Shown here: in pieces, positions 10,124-17,396 of the stretch | Position numbering within the stretch: the first letter of the stretch is position 1 | How the letters are laid out: each line of letters opens with the position of its first letter | From: Chlorobiota bacterium | Lineage (GTDB): Bacteria; Bacteroidota; Ignavibacteria; Kapaibacteriales; NICIL-2 | Assembly (NCBI GenBank): GCA_026416585.1 | Contig: JAOAEV010000044.1 | Location: 1 to 41,166 of the forward strand | Reading direction: 5' to 3' | DNA length: 41,166 bases | The notes under the pieces: generated by a model | Seen by the model: only the letters and a program-made list of their open reading frames with translations | Database searches by the model: none | Told to the model about the DNA's origin: nothing | Program-made: the position numbers and the translations under genes

Positions 10124-11422
10124 TTAGCCGGGTTTAGTAGGATCGAGGTTTTGGATTTGTTGCTCGATTGCGGCTAATGCCTCTACCTCGAGTGTGGCCA
10201 GATAGGTTGGCACATCCACTACCTCCTCGGGCGTCACATGTTTTATTTCTTCTGCCACAGCCCGGTATGCTGTCCGGAAACTTTCTCCTGTCGTGCACAT
10301 CCGATCATGAATGCGTTCGACGCTTCGAATAGCGCGGTATTCCTCACGCTGGAGTGACCCCTCGACTGCTTCAAGGTGTGGCAGTACATGTGCGAGGACA
10401 CGTGTGCATTGGTCAAAATCATCCCATGCTGGCAGCAGTATTTCTTTCAAAAGTTGATAATCACGATGGTAACCAGATGGTAGGTTCATAGTCACTGCTA
10501 TAATCTCGTTGGGAAGCATTTGCAAGCGGTTAAAACGAGCGCGCAGCAACTCGAAAACGTCGGGGTTTTGCTTGTGTGGCATAATGCTCGAGCCCGTCGA
10601 AAGCCAATTCGGTAATCGCAGCAAGCGATAGCCCGGTGAGAGAAAAAGCACGATGTCCATCGCTAGTCGCCCTAGGGTCGCTGACTGTGCCGCCAATGCA
10701 CTGACTACGGCACGTTCTTGCTTGCCGCGGAGAAACTGCGCCGCTGCAGGACTGGCAACAGTCTGTGCGAAACCGAGCAGTGCAGTTGTACGCTTGCGGC
10801 AAATAGGAAAATTGCTACCGTAACCTGCTGCTGTGCCGAGAGGATTTTTGTTAGCCAGTTCGAAAGCAGGACGAGCAAACACGATATCCTCGAGCAATGA
10901 CTCGGCAAAAGCAGCCATCCAGAGCGCAAACGTTGTCGGCATCGCTGCTTGCATGTGTGTCATACCTGGCATAAGCATCCCACGATGCACTTGTGCCCAA
11001 TCGAGCATTACGCGTAACAGCTGGAGTGTCGAACTGATAGTGCTGGTAAGACGATCTCGCACATAGAGCGATAATGCTGTGAGCACTTGATCGTTGCGCG
11101 ACCGTGCCGTGTGAATTTTTTCTCCTACAGTACCGAGTGCACGGATCAATTCAACTTCGAGCTGGGAATGAACATCCTCGATACCGTCTTCAATGCGAAA
11201 TTCACCTTGATCTATACGCTTGCCAATACGTTCTAACTCGGCGATGAGCAGTGCGGCTTCGTCAGTTGTGATGATCCCAACGTCCCCGAGCATACGAGCA
11301 TGAGCAATCGAGGCGCGAACGTCGTAGCGAGCCAGTGCAAGGTCGAGCTTCGGATCTTGCCCAATAGTGAATTGCTCAACGAGCGGATCGAGTTGAGAGT
11401 CGGGTTTCTCCCAAAGTTTCAT
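10124..11422 (-). CDS. argH: Argininosuccinate lyase
   Basis: Last step of arginine synthesis: argininosuccinate to arginine plus fumarate, in the cytoplasm. The 432-residue protein has the fumarase/aspartase superfamily signature GSSIMPHKQNPD and the upstream motifs EDVHSQLE, TARSRNDQV and MPGMTHMQAAMP. Length is slightly under the usual ~455 because the C-terminal part is shorter. The start overlaps the end of argE by 4 nt (ATGA), which suggests coupled translation. It closes the seven-gene arginine operon. The following gene on the strand is the chemoreceptor, with no obvious terminator between. Confidence 0.96.
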   Translation of the reverse strand: MKLWEKPDSQLDPLVEQFTIGQDPKLDLALARYDVRASIAHARMLGDVGIITTDEAALLIAELERIGKRIDQGEFRIEDGIEDVHSQLEVELIRALGTVGEKIHTARSRNDQVLTALSLYVRDRLTSTISSTLQLLRVMLDWAQVHRGMLMPGMTHMQAAMPTTFALWMAAFAESLLEDIVFARPAFELANKNPLGTAAGYGSNFPICRKRTTALLGFAQTVASPAAAQFLRGKQERAVVSALAAQSATLGRLAMDIVLFLSPGYRLLRLPNWLSTGSSIMPHKQNPDVFELLRARFNRLQMLPNEIIAVTMNLPSGYHRDYQLLKEILLPAWDDFDQCTRVLAHVLPHLEAVEGSLQREEYRAIRSVERIHDRMCTTGESFRTAYRAVAEEIKHVTPEEVVDVPTYLATLEVEALAAIEQQIQNLDPTKPG

Positions 11423-12492
11423 TGTTCCTCCGTGGGTGTATGACGAAGTTCATCTGCCAGGGTCAACAGAAAATGCCGATAGCCGCCGATACCAGCACTT
11501 AATTCGTCGAGGGTGATGTACTCATCGGCAGTGTGTGATCGCTGCGAATCGCCCGGTCCCATTTTGATGCTTGGCATCGGCAGTAGCGCTTGATCGGAGA
11601 GTGTCGGTGATGCGTAGCACTCGATGCCGAGTTTTTCAGCAACGCGGACGAAAATGTGCCCTTCGGGGAGTCGGGAAGGACGCAGCCGCAGTGAGACACT
11701 TTCAATGCGCGAACGAATCTGGCGCTGCAGAACGTCGAGAATTTCTTCGTGTGTGTATGCGTCAGTCGTGCGAATGTCCACAGTAAACATGCAGCGATCA
11801 GGAACGACGTTGTGCTGCGAGCCACCAGAAATCATCGTTACAGTCACGCGAACGCGACCAAGTGCGGTGCTGGTGCGTTCGAATGGTTGTGTGTGTAGCC
11901 AGGCGATGTCGTCGAGTGCGATATCAATGGCATTGATGCCCGTACCGTGAGCAGCATGACCGGCGACACCTTCGGCAATGCAACGAACGACCATCAATCC
12001 GCGCTCGGCGATCGCCACGCGCATGGACGTCGGTTCACCCACAATCGCTGCTGTAATTGGCGGTAGTTGTGGCAGCAACGATGCAATTCCGCCCTCGCCA
12101 CTGATTTCCTCTTCTGCAGTTGCAGCAAAAACGAGGTTGTAGGGAAGTCTCTCTCGTGCTAATTCAACAAATACTGTCGCTAAGGCGACTACGCTTGCAC
12201 CGGCATCGTTGCTACCGAGACCGTAGAGCTTGCCATCTTCAATTGTCGCTGTGTGTGGATCTCGCTGCCAGCCAGCACATGGACGCACGGTGTCCAGATG
12301 CGAGTTGAGCAGAATTGTTGGAGCCAAATTGTCGAAGTGCAGAGACTGTGCCCAGACGTTATTCCCCAGGTGTTGCGGTTTGATGCCGTGTCGGAGCAAG
12401 AACGATGCGATGATGTCCGCACGCTCACATTCGTGGCCTGATGGAGCCGGTGTCGCAATTAACTGGCATAGCAGTGTGAGTGCGTCATTCAT
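11419..12492 (-). CDS. argE: M20 metallo-deacylase, N-acyl-citrulline / N-acyl-ornithine deacylase (ArgE-like)
   Basis: A 357-residue M20-family hydrolase with dinuclear zinc motifs: NSHLDTV (His65, Asp67), GLGSNDAGAS (Asp96), ATAEEEISG (catalytic Glu about 127, ligand about 128) and VGEPTS. The dimerisation domain lies near residues 170-275. In pathways with an acyl-ornithine carbamoyltransferase, as here, the ArgE homologue removes the acyl group from N-acylcitrulline and gives citrulline to ArgG. Its physical coupling to argB (4-nt overlap) and argH (4-nt overlap) supports this. Whether the acyl group is acetyl or succinyl is not determined from this sequence; see argF'. Confidence 0.9.
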   Translation of the reverse strand: MNDALTLLCQLIATPAPSGHECERADIIASFLLRHGIKPQHLGNNVWAQSLHFDNLAPTILLNSHLDTVRPCAGWQRDPHTATIEDGKLYGLGSNDAGASVVALATVFVELARERLPYNLVFAATAEEEISGEGGIASLLPQLPPITAAIVGEPTSMRVAIAERGLMVVRCIAEGVAGHAAHGTGINAIDIALDDIAWLHTQPFERTSTALGRVRVTVTMISGGSQHNVVPDRCMFTVDIRTTDAYTHEEILDVLQRQIRSRIESVSLRLRPSRLPEGHIFVRVAEKLGIECYASPTLSDQALLPMPSIKMGPGDSQRSHTADEYITLDELSAGIGGYRHFLLTLADELRHTPTEEQ

Positions 12493-13265
12493 CGTGTTAC
12501 TTCCTGCTGTGCAACGATGCGCGTGCCGAAACGGTGCGGGAGGGTCTCTGCACTAATGATCGCAACATCGACACCGCATTCAGCAGCAGATAGTGCCGCG
12601 TCAATTTTCGGTAAAATGCCGTCACGAGCAATACCACGTTCAACCAATGCGGCATAGCCTGCACGGTCAAGCTGTAGCATGATTTGACCATCGCTATTGC
12701 GGACACCTCCACTCGGTGTACACAGTGAAAGTTCAACAGAATGCCCATGTACTGCGAGCATGACAGCAATGGTTGCAGCGATTGTGTCTGCATTGGTATT
12801 GAGAAGATGTCCCCATCCATCGTGTGTGATTGGTGCGGCGACGAGAGTAAATCCCCGTTCGAGCAGTGACAGAAGCAACGAAGCATCGGAATGGACAGGA
12901 TCGCCGACTAAACCAAAAGAGATCTCGCCGGTACGCTGCATAGAGCGGATTGTCCCTCCATCAAGAGCAGAAATTCCAACAGCACGAACACCAGCTGCTA
13001 ACAGTGCAGCGACAAACCGCTTGTTGATTGCACCGGCAATTGTCATCACAAGAACTTCGAGCGTTGCTTCGTCAGTGATGCGGCGACCGTTGTGGAAGCG
13101 TGTTTCGATGCCAAGTCGTGCAGCAAGCTCCGTGGTTTGGCGCCCGCCGCCATGAACAATCACCAGTGGTTGTGGGAGGAGCGCAATTCGCCGTGCTATT
13201 GTGCGAATCTGTTCGTCTGTGCTGAGCAATTCCCCACCGATTTTGAGTACATGAAGAGATGTCAT
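12489..13265 (-). CDS. argB: N-acylglutamate kinase (ArgB)
   Basis: Phosphorylates the gamma-carboxylate of N-acylglutamate, second step of the pathway. The 258-residue amino-acid kinase fold shows the N-terminal phosphate-binding VLKIGGELL, the second glycine loop VIVHGGGRQT, NGRRITDEATLEV, the Asn-containing LLNTNADTIAA, and the C-terminal DGILPKIDAAL. There is no N-terminal helical extension of the kind found in many arginine-inhibited hexameric kinases, so allosteric feedback by arginine at this enzyme seems less likely (inference). It overlaps argF' and argE by 4 nt on either side. Acyl preference (acetyl or succinyl) is open. Confidence 0.94.
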   Translation of the reverse strand: MTSLHVLKIGGELLSTDEQIRTIARRIALLPQPLVIVHGGGRQTTELAARLGIETRFHNGRRITDEATLEVLVMTIAGAINKRFVAALLAAGVRAVGISALDGGTIRSMQRTGEISFGLVGDPVHSDASLLLSLLERGFTLVAAPITHDGWGHLLNTNADTIAATIAVMLAVHGHSVELSLCTPSGGVRNSDGQIMLQLDRAGYAALVERGIARDGILPKIDAALSAAECGVDVAIISAETLPHRFGTRIVAQQEVTR

Positions 13266-14212
13266 AACGACTCCAGCATGGTACGCAATACCGCTTGTGC
13301 TGCGGGAACACGATTTGCTGCCTGTTCGACAACGATCGAACGAGGCGAATCGAGCACTGCGTCACTGGCAATCATGTTGCGCCGAATTGGCAAACAGTGC
13401 ATGAAATATCCTTCGCGTGTGAGAGCCATCTTTTCAGGTGTGATTTGCCAGCGCATGTCCTGCGATAGAATCTTGCCATAGTCACGATAGCTCGACCAGT
13501 TTTTGGCGTACACAAAGTCTGCGCCGTCAAGCGCTTCGTTCTGATCGGTCGTTATCGCTGCACCATTTGTGAAACGCTCGTCCAACTCATAGCCTGGAGG
13601 GTGAGCAATAACCACATCGTATCCCATTGCGAGTGTCCACTCGGCAAAAGAATTCGGTACAGCCTGTGGCAGTGCCTTGGGATGAGGTGCCCACGTAAGC
13701 ACCACGCGTGGACGCTCGTAACGCTTGAATTGCTCAATGGTCATGATGTCTGCCAGTGATTGGAGTGGATGTCGCGTCGCTGATTCAAGGCTGACAATCG
13801 GAACGCCCGAAAGCTCGGCGAAACGCTCAAGCACTGTTTCGGCGTAGTCTTCCAACCGATCGTGCAAGCGTGCGAATGCACGAATGCCGAGCACGTCAAC
13901 ATAGCGACCCATTACTGCCGCAGCCTCACGGATATGCTCAGCTGCAGCAGCGTCCATAATCGTACCATCGCGTGTTTCGAGCGTCCACACATCTGCTCCA
14001 ACAGTCATTGCGACAACGTCCATACCAAGCAGCGAGGCAGCACGGTGAGTACTCACACGTGTTCGCAGGCTTGGATTGAAGAACACCATGCCAAGAATTC
14101 GTCCATTGCCGAGAGTGCGCCATGCGTGTGGTGAGTGCTTGCATTCGAACGCGCGCTCAATCAGGTGCTCGCGATCGGGTACGTCTGCAAGTTTTGTGAA
14201 CTGTTTCATCAT
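13262..14212 (-). CDS. argF': N-acyl-ornithine carbamoyltransferase, predicted succinyl type (ArgF')
   Basis: Transfers the carbamoyl group to N-acyl-L-ornithine. The 316 residues have the carbamoyl-phosphate loop FFNPSLRTR, the HPLQSLADI motif and HCLPIRRN. The segments ESATRHPLQSLAD and TWAPHPKALPQAVPNSFAEW are nearly those I recall for Bacteroides fragilis succinylornithine carbamoyltransferase and unlike true ArgF. The known specificity residue, Glu92 in Xanthomonas (acetyl) and Pro90 in B. fragilis (succinyl), aligns by eye to Ala91 here (DAAAAEHI). From memory, changing the Xanthomonas Glu to Ala, Ser, Pro or Val switches it to succinylornithine, so the succinyl pathway is predicted. 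The gene starts 15 nt after argC and overlaps argB by 4 nt. Confidence 0.92.
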   Translation of the reverse strand: MMKQFTKLADVPDREHLIERAFECKHSPHAWRTLGNGRILGMVFFNPSLRTRVSTHRAASLLGMDVVAMTVGADVWTLETRDGTIMDAAAAEHIREAAAVMGRYVDVLGIRAFARLHDRLEDYAETVLERFAELSGVPIVSLESATRHPLQSLADIMTIEQFKRYERPRVVLTWAPHPKALPQAVPNSFAEWTLAMGYDVVIAHPPGYELDERFTNGAAITTDQNEALDGADFVYAKNWSSYRDYGKILSQDMRWQITPEKMALTREGYFMHCLPIRRNMIASDAVLDSPRSIVVEQAANRVPAAQAVLRTMLESL

Positions 14213-14227
14213 GAACTTTAAGTAGTG

Positions 14228-15169
14228 TTACCAACCAATTGCACGAAGGGGCAAACCGTCGCACTCATTGAATCCGAGTGCAAGATTCATGTTCTGTACT
14301 GCTTGCGCAGCAGCACCTTTGAGCAGATTGTCGAGTGTGCAGACGATAGCTGCAGATCCGCTGACAACTGTGGTATTAAGCACAGCGCGTGCGGTGCCAA
14401 CCACGTACTTGAGATCAGGGATTCGGTCGCTGATTCTGACCATTGGGTGTGGTGTGTAATAGTCGCGATAGAGTTGGTCGAGTTCGTGCTCTTTCAGCGC
14501 TGTGTCGAAAACACATGTTGTCACAATGCCGCGAGTGAAACTGCCGCGATACGGCACGAAACGGAGCCTGGCAGATATCGCTAATGCTGTTGTTACCTCG
14601 GTCACATGTCGATGGCAGAGGATGCTGTACGGTTGTGCGTTTGCAAAGCGCCAGGAGAAATGTAGAGTCGGACTCATTTCTGCGCCTGCACCAGTGGAGC
14701 CTGTGATCCCACTTGCATCAATGGTAGCGGGGAGCTCACCGTTTTTTGCCAGCGGGAGGAGCGAAAGCAGCAGTGCTGTTGCAAAGCAACCGGGGTTTGC
14801 AATTCGCCGAGCAGCGCCAATGAGATCACGGTTGAGTTCCGGTGAGCCGTAAACAAATGCTGAATCAGCGCGGTGATCGCTGCTCAGGTCAATGACGATA
14901 CTATCGAGCAGGTGGGGAAACTCGGCAAGTATTGGCTGCGCTGCACTGTGTGGCACCGCCAGGAACACCACGTCAGCATCGCCTGCAGGTGTAGCAACAA
15001 GCTTGATCTGACACACCCCAGCAAGATCAGGTGCAATCTGTGTAAGGGATGCTCCTGCGCGGGAGCGGCTGACGGCATAGGCGATTTCTACGTGCGGATG
15101 AAATGCCAAAATGCGCAATAATTCTATGCCGACAAAACCACTGGCACCAATGACACCGACACGAATCAT
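14228..15169 (-). CDS. argC: N-acyl-gamma-glutamyl-phosphate reductase
   Basis: NADPH-dependent reduction of N-acylglutamyl phosphate to the semialdehyde. The frame is open further upstream (to 15253), but the correct start is the ATG at 15169: the protein then begins MIRVGVIGASGFVGIELLRI, the normal N-terminus with its Rossmann GxxGxxG, and the ATG overlaps the argG stop by 4 nt like its operon neighbours. That gives 313 residues. The catalytic cysteine is Cys128 in IANPGCFATA, and a histidine in the segment YSILCHRHVTEV would be the base. The partner enzymes ArgB, ArgF' and ArgE follow. The aminotransferase (argD) that must act next is not in this window. Confidence 0.94.
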   Translation of the reverse strand: MIRVGVIGASGFVGIELLRILAFHPHVEIAYAVSRSRAGASLTQIAPDLAGVCQIKLVATPAGDADVVFLAVPHSAAQPILAEFPHLLDSIVIDLSSDHRADSAFVYGSPELNRDLIGAARRIANPGCFATALLLSLLPLAKNGELPATIDASGITGSTGAGAEMSPTLHFSWRFANAQPYSILCHRHVTEVTTALAISARLRFVPYRGSFTRGIVTTCVFDTALKEHELDQLYRDYYTPHPMVRISDRIPDLKYVVGTARAVLNTTVVSGSAAIVCTLDNLLKGAAAQAVQNMNLALGFNECDGLPLRAIGW

Positions 15170-16356
15170 TGCGTGCCCCCATTGACGGTGTGAAAGATGC
15201 GAACTTGTTGAGCCATGATCCGGGCAAAACCGCGAACGTCGTCGGCGTTCCAATCGGCGGCATGTTCACCATAGCTGCCAAAGCGGGCGTTCATTAGATC
15301 ATGTGGCGAAGTAATTCCCTCCAGCTCGAAGCGTTTCGGGGCGAGTCGTACGACAACGCTGCCGGTGACTGTACGCTGGGTATCGGTGAGAAACGCTTCA
15401 ATTGCCCGCAGCGACGGCTCTTCGAACATACCTTCATGGAGCAGTTGACCGTACCAGAGCGCAAGCTGTTCTTTGAGTATCAACTGCCACTTGGTAAGCG
15501 TGTGCTTTTCGAGAAGGTGATGTGCTGCGATGGTGACCAGTGGCGCTGCTGCCTGGAATCCGACGCGTCCTTTGGTACCGATGATCGTATCGCCGACGTG
15601 AATGCCGCGACCAATCCCAAGCGGGGCTGCCAGATGCTCCAGCGCGGCGATTGCCTCGAGCGGATGTCTGTAGTGCTTCTCGTCGAGAGCGAAGAGTTCG
15701 CCGCACTTGAAATGGAGCGTAATGCGCTGCTCGCTCTGCGCGGTCAATGGGGTTGGATATGCGTCATCGGGTAGTGGTTCATGCGACGTGAGAGTTTGGC
15801 GCCCGCCGACGGTTATTCCCCAAATGCCACGATTGATCGAGTATGGCGGACGATCATGCTCGAGAGCTACACCGTGTGCGTGTAAAAACTCCAACGCTTC
15901 ATGGCGTGAAACGTTGCCATCGCGAACTGGTGTGAGGATTTCAATGTTGGGCGCGAGAATATGCCACGCAGCATCGAAGCGAATTTGATCGTTACCCGCA
16001 CCGGTGCTACCATGCGCCAGCGCGTCGGCACCCATTGAACGTGCGTATGCAGCAAGCAAACGTGCTTGGATAGCACGCTCTGCACTGACCGAGAGTGGAT
16101 AGGTCCCATAGCGCAGCACATTGCCGAACACCAAATAGCGCAGGCATTGATCGTAGAGAGGCTTTGTTCCATTGAGTGTGGCGTGGGATGATGCACCAAG
16201 CGAATGCGCACGCTCTTCAATTGCACTAAGTTCGTCGGCGGTGAATCCGCCAGTGTCCACAGTAACAGTGTGAACAGCAAAACCGCGCTCGCGCAAGAAC
16301 AACAGGCAATATGTTGTGTCTAAACCGCCGCTAAAAGCGAGAACGACTTTTCTCAC
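15166..16356 (-). CDS. argG: Argininosuccinate synthase
   Basis: ATP-dependent joining of citrulline and aspartate. The 396-residue protein opens with the PP-motif AFSGGLDTTYCLLFL and has HGSTGAGNDQIRF, the citrulline/aspartate-binding ERAIQARLL segment and the C-terminal ELFALDEKHY region. Length fits the family. It is the second gene of the operon and is joined to its neighbours by 4-nt overlaps (GNAT gene at 16353-16356, argC at 15166-15169). Placing argG directly after the GNAT gene is an arrangement I associate with arginine clusters in Bacteroidota. Confidence 0.96.
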   Translation of the reverse strand: MRKVVLAFSGGLDTTYCLLFLRERGFAVHTVTVDTGGFTADELSAIEERAHSLGASSHATLNGTKPLYDQCLRYLVFGNVLRYGTYPLSVSAERAIQARLLAAYARSMGADALAHGSTGAGNDQIRFDAAWHILAPNIEILTPVRDGNVSRHEALEFLHAHGVALEHDRPPYSINRGIWGITVGGRQTLTSHEPLPDDAYPTPLTAQSEQRITLHFKCGELFALDEKHYRHPLEAIAALEHLAAPLGIGRGIHVGDTIIGTKGRVGFQAAAPLVTIAAHHLLEKHTLTKWQLILKEQLALWYGQLLHEGMFEEPSLRAIEAFLTDTQRTVTGSVVVRLAPKRFELEGITSPHDLMNARFGSYGEHAADWNADDVRGFARIMAQQVRIFHTVNGGTQ

Positions 16357-16979
16357 GGTTGCTCAGCTGTTGGTGATTGGGAAACAAGTGGTAATGGATG
16401 CTCGATATGCTCAAGCGGATCGTAGAGTAAACCGGTGCATAGGCACATTGTGCGCCCAGTTCGCTGCAGGATGTCGTAGTTACGGCATGATTGGCACCCA
16501 CGCCAGAATTCATCGTCGCTTGTGAGTTCAGAAAAGTGTACGGGACGAAAACCAATCTCGCTGTTGAGTTTGAGGACAGCAGCACTCGTGGTAATGCTGA
16601 AAATTTTCGCTGTCGGATAGAGCTTGCGAGATAACGCAAAGGCTGCCCATTTGATACGGCGTGCGATGCCATGTCGGCGATAGGAAGGTGCAACAATAAG
16701 ACCCGAATTGGCAACGTATCGTCCATGCTCCCATGTTTCGATGTAACAAAAGCCAACAAGTTCGCCGGTGTAGTGCGCGATGATTGCTTTCCCTTCGCGC
16801 ATTTTTTGGCGAATGTAATCCGGGGGACGCCGCGCGATACCTGTGCCGCGTTGCAATGCCGATTGCTCGATAAGCTCTGATATCCGCTCGGCAAAATGCT
16901 CGTGCGAGTTAGTAGCAACTTCGACAGTGATGCTGTCTGCATCAAGGTCTGGTGGATTTGCGATGATTGTCTGTTCCAT
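16353..16979 (-). CDS. GNAT acyltransferase, probable N-acylglutamate synthase
   Basis: A 208-residue GNAT protein heading the arginine operon. The acyl-CoA loop is GLIVAPSYRRHGIARRIK (about 93-110), preceded by GKAIIAHYTGELVGFCYIETW and followed by the EIGFRPV strand. The operon lacks argJ and a classical argA, so this enzyme most likely acylates glutamate in the first step; if the pathway is succinylated, succinyl-CoA would be the donor (inference). The C-terminus has an unusual cysteine set, Cys162-x2-Cys165 and Cys179-x-Cys181, which might bind a metal or sense redox state. A GAGG ribosome binding site sits just before the ATG at 16979. Expression should depend on the attenuator 30-200 nt upstream. 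Confidence 0.85.
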   Translation of the reverse strand: MEQTIIANPPDLDADSITVEVATNSHEHFAERISELIEQSALQRGTGIARRPPDYIRQKMREGKAIIAHYTGELVGFCYIETWEHGRYVANSGLIVAPSYRRHGIARRIKWAAFALSRKLYPTAKIFSITTSAAVLKLNSEIGFRPVHFSELTSDDEFWRGCQSCRNYDILQRTGRTMCLCTGLLYDPLEHIEHPLPLVSQSPTAEQP

Positions 16980-17000
16980 TGTGCCTCTACGTCGTACAAC

Positions 17001-17039
17001 AAAAACAAATGCCGCTTCCTGGTTGGCACAGGAAGCGGC
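17001..17039 (-). terminator. Intrinsic terminator in the arginine operon leader (attenuator)
   Basis: On the minus strand GCCGCTTCCT (17039-17030), a 9-nt loop GTGCCAACC and AGGAAGCGGC (17020-17011) form a perfect 10-bp stem, followed by ATTTGTTTTTG (17010-17000). It points toward the arginine operon and ends about 22 nt before the GNAT start codon, with no upstream gene on this strand that it could serve. It is therefore a premature terminator. The 5' arm and loop can pair instead with the upstream hairpin arm at 17129-17120. Confidence 0.75.
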
Positions 17040-17078
17040 GCGATTGTGTGTCGTTTTTTGGTTAGTGTGCTCTGGCTA

Positions 17079-17183
17079 TCATGATGTAATCACTCGACTC
17101 GCCGACAACGCGCGTGCTATCCTGTGCCACTGGTGGCAGGATCGTCGCACGTGTCGTCGTCGAATCGAGCAGAACAAACGCAT
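17079..17183 (-). CDS. Arginine-rich leader peptide of the arginine operon attenuator (34 aa)
   Basis: A short ORF, ATG at 17183-17181 and TGA at 17081-17079, encoding 34 residues beginning MRLFCSIRRRHVRRSCHQWH. Nine residues are arginine; positions 8-14 read Arg-Arg-Arg-His-Val-Arg-Arg, and all five of those arginines use CGA. The Arg codon cluster (17162-17142) ends exactly where the first leader hairpin begins. This is the arrangement of trp, his and leu leader peptides, where a ribosome stalled for lack of charged tRNA lets the antiterminator form. No strong ribosome binding site is visible (TTTGAG just before the ATG), and translation could be leaderless. The peptide itself needs no function. 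The main doubt is chance: CGA-rich runs do occur in this genome. Confidence 0.65.
   Translation of the reverse strand: MRLFCSIRRRHVRRSCHQWHRIARALSASRVITS
17119..17142 (-). promoter_or_regulatory. Pause / antiterminator hairpin of the arginine operon leader
   Basis: Minus-strand arms ATCCTGCCAC (17142-17133) and GTGGCACAGGAT (17130-17119) form a hairpin with a 2-nt loop and a 2-nt bulge. Within its 3' arm, TGGCACAGGA (17129-17120) is perfectly complementary to TCCTGTGCCA (17033-17024) in the terminator's 5' arm and loop. The two pairings exclude each other. A ribosome held on Arg codons 13-14 would cover the 5' arm, free the 3' arm and favour the antiterminator; free flow would restore this hairpin and the terminator. 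Confidence 0.7.
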
Positions 17184-17186
17184 ACT

Positions 17187-17215
17187 CAAAGTACTTGAAC
17201 AAAAACGGCTACAAA
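17187..17215 (-). promoter_or_regulatory. Possible promoter of the arginine leader
   Basis: On the minus strand TTTG (17215-17212), 18 nt, then TACTTTG (17193-17187), one base short of TAnnTTTG. If used, transcription would begin close to the leader ATG at 17183, giving a leaderless leader peptide. A second weak -7, TATATTCG at 17232-17225, lies further upstream. Neither is a perfect match. Confidence 0.3.
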
Positions 17216-17288
17216 ATCGGGGCGCGAATATACGGCACTATATTGCTAATTGTACCTATGCGGCACGTTCTGTATTGATATCGCCTTC

Positions 17289-17315
17289 CTCCGTGTGGGT
17301 ACTTGGCACACAGAG
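17289..17315. repeat. Inverted repeat in the arginine operon / thiolase divergent region
   Basis: CTCTGTGTG and CACACGGAG (minus strand, 17315-17289) flank a 9-nt spacer and pair over 9 bp with one G-U. It lies between the divergent arginine operon and thiolase gene. With no T-tract after it, it looks more like an operator or leader structure than a terminator. Confidence 0.3.
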
Positions 17316-17396
17316 TCGCTGCATTGTTTAAAAAGACGTGCACAATGAAGTATTGACGCTCACTGCACGCGTCACCGGAAGTGTGTCAAAGAAGTG

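Follow-up and report, generated by a model that had tools for sequence, protein, structure and literature searches.

Ribosome-mediated attenuators are known from the trp, his, leu, ilv, thr and phe operons of enteric bacteria and others. In 2010, a survey could list peptide attenuators for Proteobacteria and Actinobacteria and, as a new addition, for Firmicutes, but for no other phylum (PMC2965389). In Flavobacterium psychrophilum, attenuation by leader peptides has also been inferred for amino-acid operons from the transcriptome maps of a 2021 study, the operons being unnamed in the main text (PMC9723704). Arginine codons are used in leaders of other kinds: orf34 of the Salmonella speF leader holds consecutive Arg codons, and pausing at low arginine alters the folding of the RNA (PMC6386406), and the Arg-codon leader peptide rbfL of Staphylococcus aureus senses arginine limitation (PMC13009471). 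For an arginine biosynthesis operon we found no report of a peptide attenuator in the open-access literature, in agreement with an earlier note on this DNA, which knew of none described in the phylum. Here, we analyze the leader of an arginine operon in a 41,166-nt window (the whole stretch of DNA under study), which belongs to a 2.06-Mb genome with the Candidatus Kapabacteria / Chlorobiota assemblies KatS3mg039, KatS3mg040, SKW43 and J074 as nearest named relatives. Judged from sequence, the leader probably controls the operon by ribosome-mediated transcription attenuation in response to charged tRNA-Arg, and replaces ArgR.

The arginine operon and its leader

The operon has the order GNAT-argG-argC-argF'-argB-argE-argH on the minus strand, directly behind the leader (Table 1). 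The product of its first gene, a GNAT acetyltransferase for which NCBIfam gave no match, is likely N-acetylglutamate synthase. The arginine pathway is kept in the genus, while those to histidine and tryptophan are apparently missing; the HisG and chorismate-binding (TrpE) families were searched for in four genomes of the genus (G000, G003, G004 and G005) and neither was found, so that no comparison with a his or trp attenuator is possible within the genus.

Table 1 Positions of the leader elements, the operon genes and the related leaders.
Feature	Position	Strand	Remarks
Promoter-like element TATATTCG	17225..17232	-	Resembles Bacteroidota type TAnnTTTG; candidate by sequence
Leader ORF	17183-17079	-	34 codons; encodes MRLFCSIRRRHVRRSCHQWHRIARALSASRVITS; nine Arg codons; read directly
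Outer stem around hairpin 1	17099..17164, limits approximate	-	RNAalifold consensus
Hairpin 1:2	17119..17142	-	Segment 1 = 17142-17133, segment 2 = 17130-17119; conserved in five species
Antiterminator part of segment 2	17120..17129	-	10 nt able to pair with 17033-17024 (2:3)
Terminator hairpin 3:4	17011..17039	-	11 bp, loop of 7; segment 3 = 17033-17024
Terminator T-rich tract ATTTGTTTTT	17001..17010	-	Read directly
GNAT acetyltransferase, first gene	16353..16979	-	Heads the arg operon
argG, argininosuccinate synthase	15166..16356	-	Clear NCBIfam match, below cut-off
argC	14228..15175	-	TIGR01850 above curated cut-off
argF', N-acetylornithine carbamoyltransferase	13262..14212	-	NF003384 above curated cut-off
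argB	12489..13265	-	TIGR00761 above curated cut-off
ArgE/DapE family deacylase	11419..12492	-	Clear match, below curated cut-off
argH, argininosuccinate lyase	10124..11422	-	Clear match, just below cut-off
Family f2 leaders	L040:2727-2821, L046:2820-2909, L047:2866-2960 and nine others		Alignment A4, model R2
Marinifilaceae ORF	L066, L067, L073, L074, L089, L109, L097		Ends 25-31 nt before the GNAT gene

The remark in the earlier note that regulation in this phylum is usually attributed to ArgR-type repressors does not fit this lineage. ArgR (PF02863) is present in 3 of the 123 genomes of the order and missing from the remaining 120, as it is from the family of the window; the profile search found it neither in G000 nor in any genome of family f1, and the same search did detect it in 8 of 14 control genomes. 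The three ArgR-bearing genomes belong to family f3, where GNAT was mostly not found. Another form of control is therefore more likely.

Five of the nine Arg codons of the leader ORF fall within the control cluster RRRHVRR (codons 8-14), where codons 8-10 and 13-14 are each CGA and codon 14 occupies 17144-17142. CGA makes up 6/9 Arg codons of the leader vs 16% in the neighbouring genes (binomial tail 0.0008), and it may have been chosen as a slow codon or for pairing with TTGTCG. Among the 824 short ORFs of the window, 6 have at least five Arg within seven codons, and dinucleotide shuffling of the leader gave such an Arg-cluster ORF in 33 of 2000 cases. A 162-aa plus-strand ORF over the leader (16843-17331) was considered as an antisense protein gene and rejected, given that antisense frames vary in length and sequence among the relatives.

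Hairpin 1:2 starts at the third position of Arg codon 14 (17142) and is enclosed by an outer stem, whose arms lie at approximately 17164-17145, which holds the Arg codons, and 17116-17099, with CGACGA pairing to a conserved TTGTCG. The 3' arm of hairpin 1 is perfectly complementary over 10 bp to the 5' arm and loop of the terminator (TGGCACAGGA at 17129-17120 vs TCCTGTGCCA at 17033-17024), and when hairpin 1 was shuffled, 9 bp or more with the terminator arm were reached in 13 of 20000 cases. The terminator itself, GCCGCTTCCTG-TGCCAAC-CAGGAAGCGGC (17039-17011), ranks first in stem pairs and in G-C pairs among the terminator-like sites in 8 kb. Only 21 nt separate the end of its T-tract from the start codon of the first gene (ATG at 16979), a gap in which a usual promoter is unlikely to fit. 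Isolated energies for the window leader are -9.5 kcal/mol for the inner 1:2 hairpin, -19.5 for the 2:3 duplex and -20.4 for 3:4.

Every element that the earlier note had read in this region was found again at the coordinates it gave. The leader ORF with its nine Arg codons and five of them among codons 8-14 was confirmed base by base, and the hairpin at the end of the Arg cluster and the 10-nt complementarity are both in place. The terminator and T-tract are likewise present close before the first gene, although the stem has 11 bp where 10 had been counted and the gap is 21 nt where 22 had been given. A transcript starting downstream of 17011, which the note had named as an outcome that would speak against it, is disfavoured by the scarcity of space for a promoter there and by the conserved promoter-like element upstream of the leader. 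This element (TATATTCG/TATTTTCG) is identical or near-identical in five congeners, the sequence of L033 starting inside it; no sigma-70 match was found at 17225..17232, and transcription would be expected to start a few nucleotides downstream of the element.

Conservation in the genus and a proposed mechanism

The genus sample comprises six genomes including that of the window, five with the operon and one without argG. In 5/5 argG-bearing congeners one complete leader, and no second, stands immediately upstream of the GNAT gene, matched at E-values of 2e-34 to 9e-41 by a covariance model that was built from those five leaders, so that the values speak for uniqueness and not for independent discovery. 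No further convincing full copy was found in the 123 genomes of the order, just terminator-like noise, and a plasmid search with the leader gave no match. The sixth genome, G001, is a congener at 99% completeness and lacks argG, the GNAT gene and the leader.

Relatives with the operon but with neither a conserved Arg-codon cluster nor covarying stems had been named in the earlier note as a finding that would count against it; the cluster and all stems are kept in all five. The leader frame is open throughout, with the shared pattern RRRxxRR(R)xC..WH......LS and the peptide cores RRRHVRRSCHQWH, RRRQVRRPCQQWH, RRRTLRRPCLLWH and RRRSLRRRPCQQWH (the last in two species), and the leader peptides differ in length by one codon, in frame, within the Arg cluster. 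In every case 29-31 nt lie between the end of the terminator hairpin and the first gene. The loop region of the terminator keeps GTGCC, the partner of segment 2, in all five, where terminator function alone would normally leave the loop free to drift. Across the five species the 2:3 pairing holds in 49/50 cells (98%) vs 39-57% for slid partners. Two species have gained CC before GTGCC in the terminator and carry A->G in segment 2, such that GGCACGG still meets CCGTGCC, which, depending on how the sequences are aligned, amounts to compensation or to a G-U pair. As to the covariation of stems that the earlier note had proposed as a check, the evidence within the genus is thin: pairing is conserved, but no 2:3 pair of the alignment has a double change among the five sequences, and the signal for 2:3 in the genus is one of conservation in five sequences as opposed to statistical covariation.

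Chance was rejected as the origin of the arrangement: the individual features are uncommon, and here they stand together and in order ahead of an arginine operon, an arrangement that five species conserve. The terminator is stronger than any other single element, as it would be if it merely ended a small constitutive leader RNA or cut operon expression by a fixed, unregulated amount. Such a role has very little probability, given that it leaves unexplained why five species keep the terminator loop, a hairpin 1 complementary to it and a suitably spaced Arg cluster, in an operon with hardly any space for its own promoter past the terminator.

A ribosome-mediated switch would account for these features as follows. 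Transcription would begin approximately 40 nt ahead of the leader ORF, with a translating ribosome trailing RNA polymerase. When arginine is plentiful, the ribosome would cross the Arg codons and finish at 17079, and hairpin 1:2 would form or re-form; segment 3 would then be free for the terminator 3:4, and transcription would stop before the GNAT gene. When arginine is scarce, the ribosome would stall at codons 13-14 with its leading edge over segment 1, to approximately 17131; segment 2 would be left free to pair with the emerging segment 3, the terminator would be blocked and the operon transcribed. The ribosome footprint extends approximately 12 nt past the codon being translated (PMC4833913), hence an A site at codon 13 or 14 would place its edge at approximately 17131, covering segment 1 and leaving segment 2. 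A stall at codons 8-10 would leave segment 1 unmasked and hairpin 1:2 free. These codons may serve timing, given that more control codons make attenuation more sensitive in a model (PMC1183508), and the proximal RRR run would probably slow the ribosome and sharpen the response.

The earlier note had proposed that a stall at codons 13-14 masks the 5' arm of hairpin 1 and favours the antiterminator, and folding supports the second step: with segment 1 masked and segment 4 absent, the mean 2:3 pairing probability is 0.92, 1.0, 0.97, 0.79 and 0.91 in the five species. For free RNA at equilibrium without a stalled ribosome, the values in some intermediates are 0.81, 0.42, 0.97, 0.0 and 0.90. The antiterminator can thus form without a ribosome in some species; therefore, the order of folding matters and hairpin 1:2 must form first.

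The residues after the Arg run, PC..WH, are conserved in the congeners, as they might be if the leader encoded an arrest peptide responding to free arginine or a metabolite related to it instead of charged tRNA-Arg. Such peptides exist, in that SpeFL senses ornithine and the fungal arginine attenuator peptide senses arginine. An Arg-codon leader of another logic is also known in Salmonella speF orf34 (PMC6386406). However, the conserved residues are encoded by the sequence of hairpin 1:2, so that RNA pairing accounts for them, and a stall caused by arginine at this place would favour read-through, the wrong sign for a biosynthetic operon. We hence regard an arrest peptide as improbable.

The codon usage bears on a further alternative, in which the switch works without translation, as a riboswitch or as a leader bound by a protein (an RNA-only attenuator); the CGA repeats would then serve as one arm, the 5' one, of a long hairpin closed by TTGTCG, and the Arg-rich ORF would be incidental. 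The clustered control codons are CGA in 5/5 species, with no variation within the genus, and lie in or beside the 5' arm of the outer stem; since CGA is invariant and pairs with TTGTCG, the Arg run is possibly a product of selection at the nucleotide level. The variable columns of the leader core, 6, 6 and 8 by codon position in five sequences, are flat and do not favour coding. On the other hand, the frame is open in all five species and no Rfam family matches: a search with the window gave no match at the gathering score and nothing of weight at E 10, and the only two matches in 16950-17300 were both far below gathering. An RNA-only leader seems unlikely on balance, also in view of the codons used in other lineages (below).

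Arg-run reading frames beyond the genus

Short sense ORFs with RRR lie upstream of the GNAT gene at 23 of 80 loci, compared with 5 for the next amino-acid run and 10 for Arg in antisense; the 80 loci come from species in which a related GNAT occurs, congeners in four cases, and as the loci are related the count is descriptive. Arg-run ORFs of a different build precede the same operon in another family of the order, and probably in other Bacteroidota as well.

The second family, f2, has an ORF with RRRLPLRE followed by a hairpin, another build than the leader of the genus. This hairpin covaries, with 5 pairs changed on both sides and 22 double-change cells vs 8.3 +/- 2.0 in shuffled and at most 11 in slid alignments. 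The model R2 matched 12 genomes strongly, once each, and 12/12 matches lie approximately 40-280 nt before a GNAT gene. No T-tract terminator was seen in the f2 leaders, and the readout may therefore differ. The two arms of the f2 hairpin are GCTGCGGG and CCCGCAGC, the former also being able to pair locally with CCCGGCAGC, and in several of these leaders the stop codon of the ORF falls just before the 3' arm.

Marinifilaceae carry a conserved 46-codon ORF with RRRCFRE directly before the arg operon (pN/pS 0.09 among six), in which the Arg positions persist through synonymous AGA, CGA, CGC and CGG. A search of a phylum sample with this leader peptide gave no match, the sample being one without a positive control. 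Terminator-like hairpins are seen inside the ORF. In two Saprospiraceae (L048 and L056), the short ORF upstream of GNAT encodes RRFRRRPSGR(A/V), with Arg codons other than those of the CGA run; its PSG is encoded by a CCTTCGGGG hairpin. Emticicia has an Arg-containing short ORF, MKIRLPITPVRRFRYINIRQ and relatives, upstream of GNAT (L070, L085, L086, L092, L058 and L081). The same upstream region contains a TTTTGC...GCAAAA hairpin that varies on both sides, and a long stretch, GGATACAGCGTCTCCGTTTGAGGGAAAGCCCAATAAATGACGATG, is conserved immediately ahead of GNAT. ArgR is absent from the tested genomes that carry the f2, Marinifilaceae, Saprospiraceae and Emticicia forms.

Other genera of the window's own family (L023 and L024, from G007 and G006) have short ORFs ending in ...SYY directly before GNAT, one with RRR and the other with RSR; no terminator was seen between these ORFs and the GNAT gene. 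In family f9 (G015, G023, G035, G049, G053 and G072), GNAT lies within open frames of approximately 590-630 aa, suggesting a fusion with another protein.

The Arg runs of the other lineages, before the same operon, use CGC, CGT, AGA and AGG and come with other structures, which argues against the RNA-only alternative and supports the codon reading. Arg-run leaders are not universal, given that many Cytophagales with the same GNAT gene, those tested being without ArgR, show no Arg-run ORF. We tentatively entertain the broader view that ArgR-less Bacteroidota, Kapabacteria and several families among them, have repeatedly built Arg-codon leader switches of different RNA architecture before the arg operon, and that this could be the usual arginine control in a large part of the phylum.

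Relation to described attenuators

The attenuation described in F. psychrophilum shares the broad phylum and the general mechanism with the leader proposed here; the main text of that study contains no arginine leader (PMC9723704). The Salmonella speF leader differs in controlling ornithine decarboxylase via Rho, RNase G and ornithine, with no arginine biosynthesis operon and no intrinsic-terminator switch (PMC6386406). In S. aureus, rbfL acts on translation by blocking the ribosome-binding site of a biofilm regulator, and scarce arginine lowers expression (PMC13009471). ArgR/AhrC acts on the same pathway and in the direction expected of the leader, but is a DNA-binding repressor. The leader would offer an answer to how the pathway is controlled in an ArgR-less lineage, and a case of an RNA switch replacing a repressor, and the related Arg-run leaders provide candidates in culturable Bacteroidota (Labilibaculum, Marinifilum and Emticicia).

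The closest likeness is to the enteric-type attenuators, with which the leader shares the cluster of end-product codons, the mutually exclusive 1:2, 2:3 and 3:4 pairings and an intrinsic terminator, predicted here, before the first gene. It differs from them in its proposed arginine specificity, its arginine operon, its occurrence in Kapabacteria/Bacteroidota and the absence of an Rfam leader match. Hence, the attenuation mechanism itself is known, whereas the amino-acid specificity would be new as far as we could find, and an arginine attenuator before an arginine operon would add a specificity to a limited set of attenuators.
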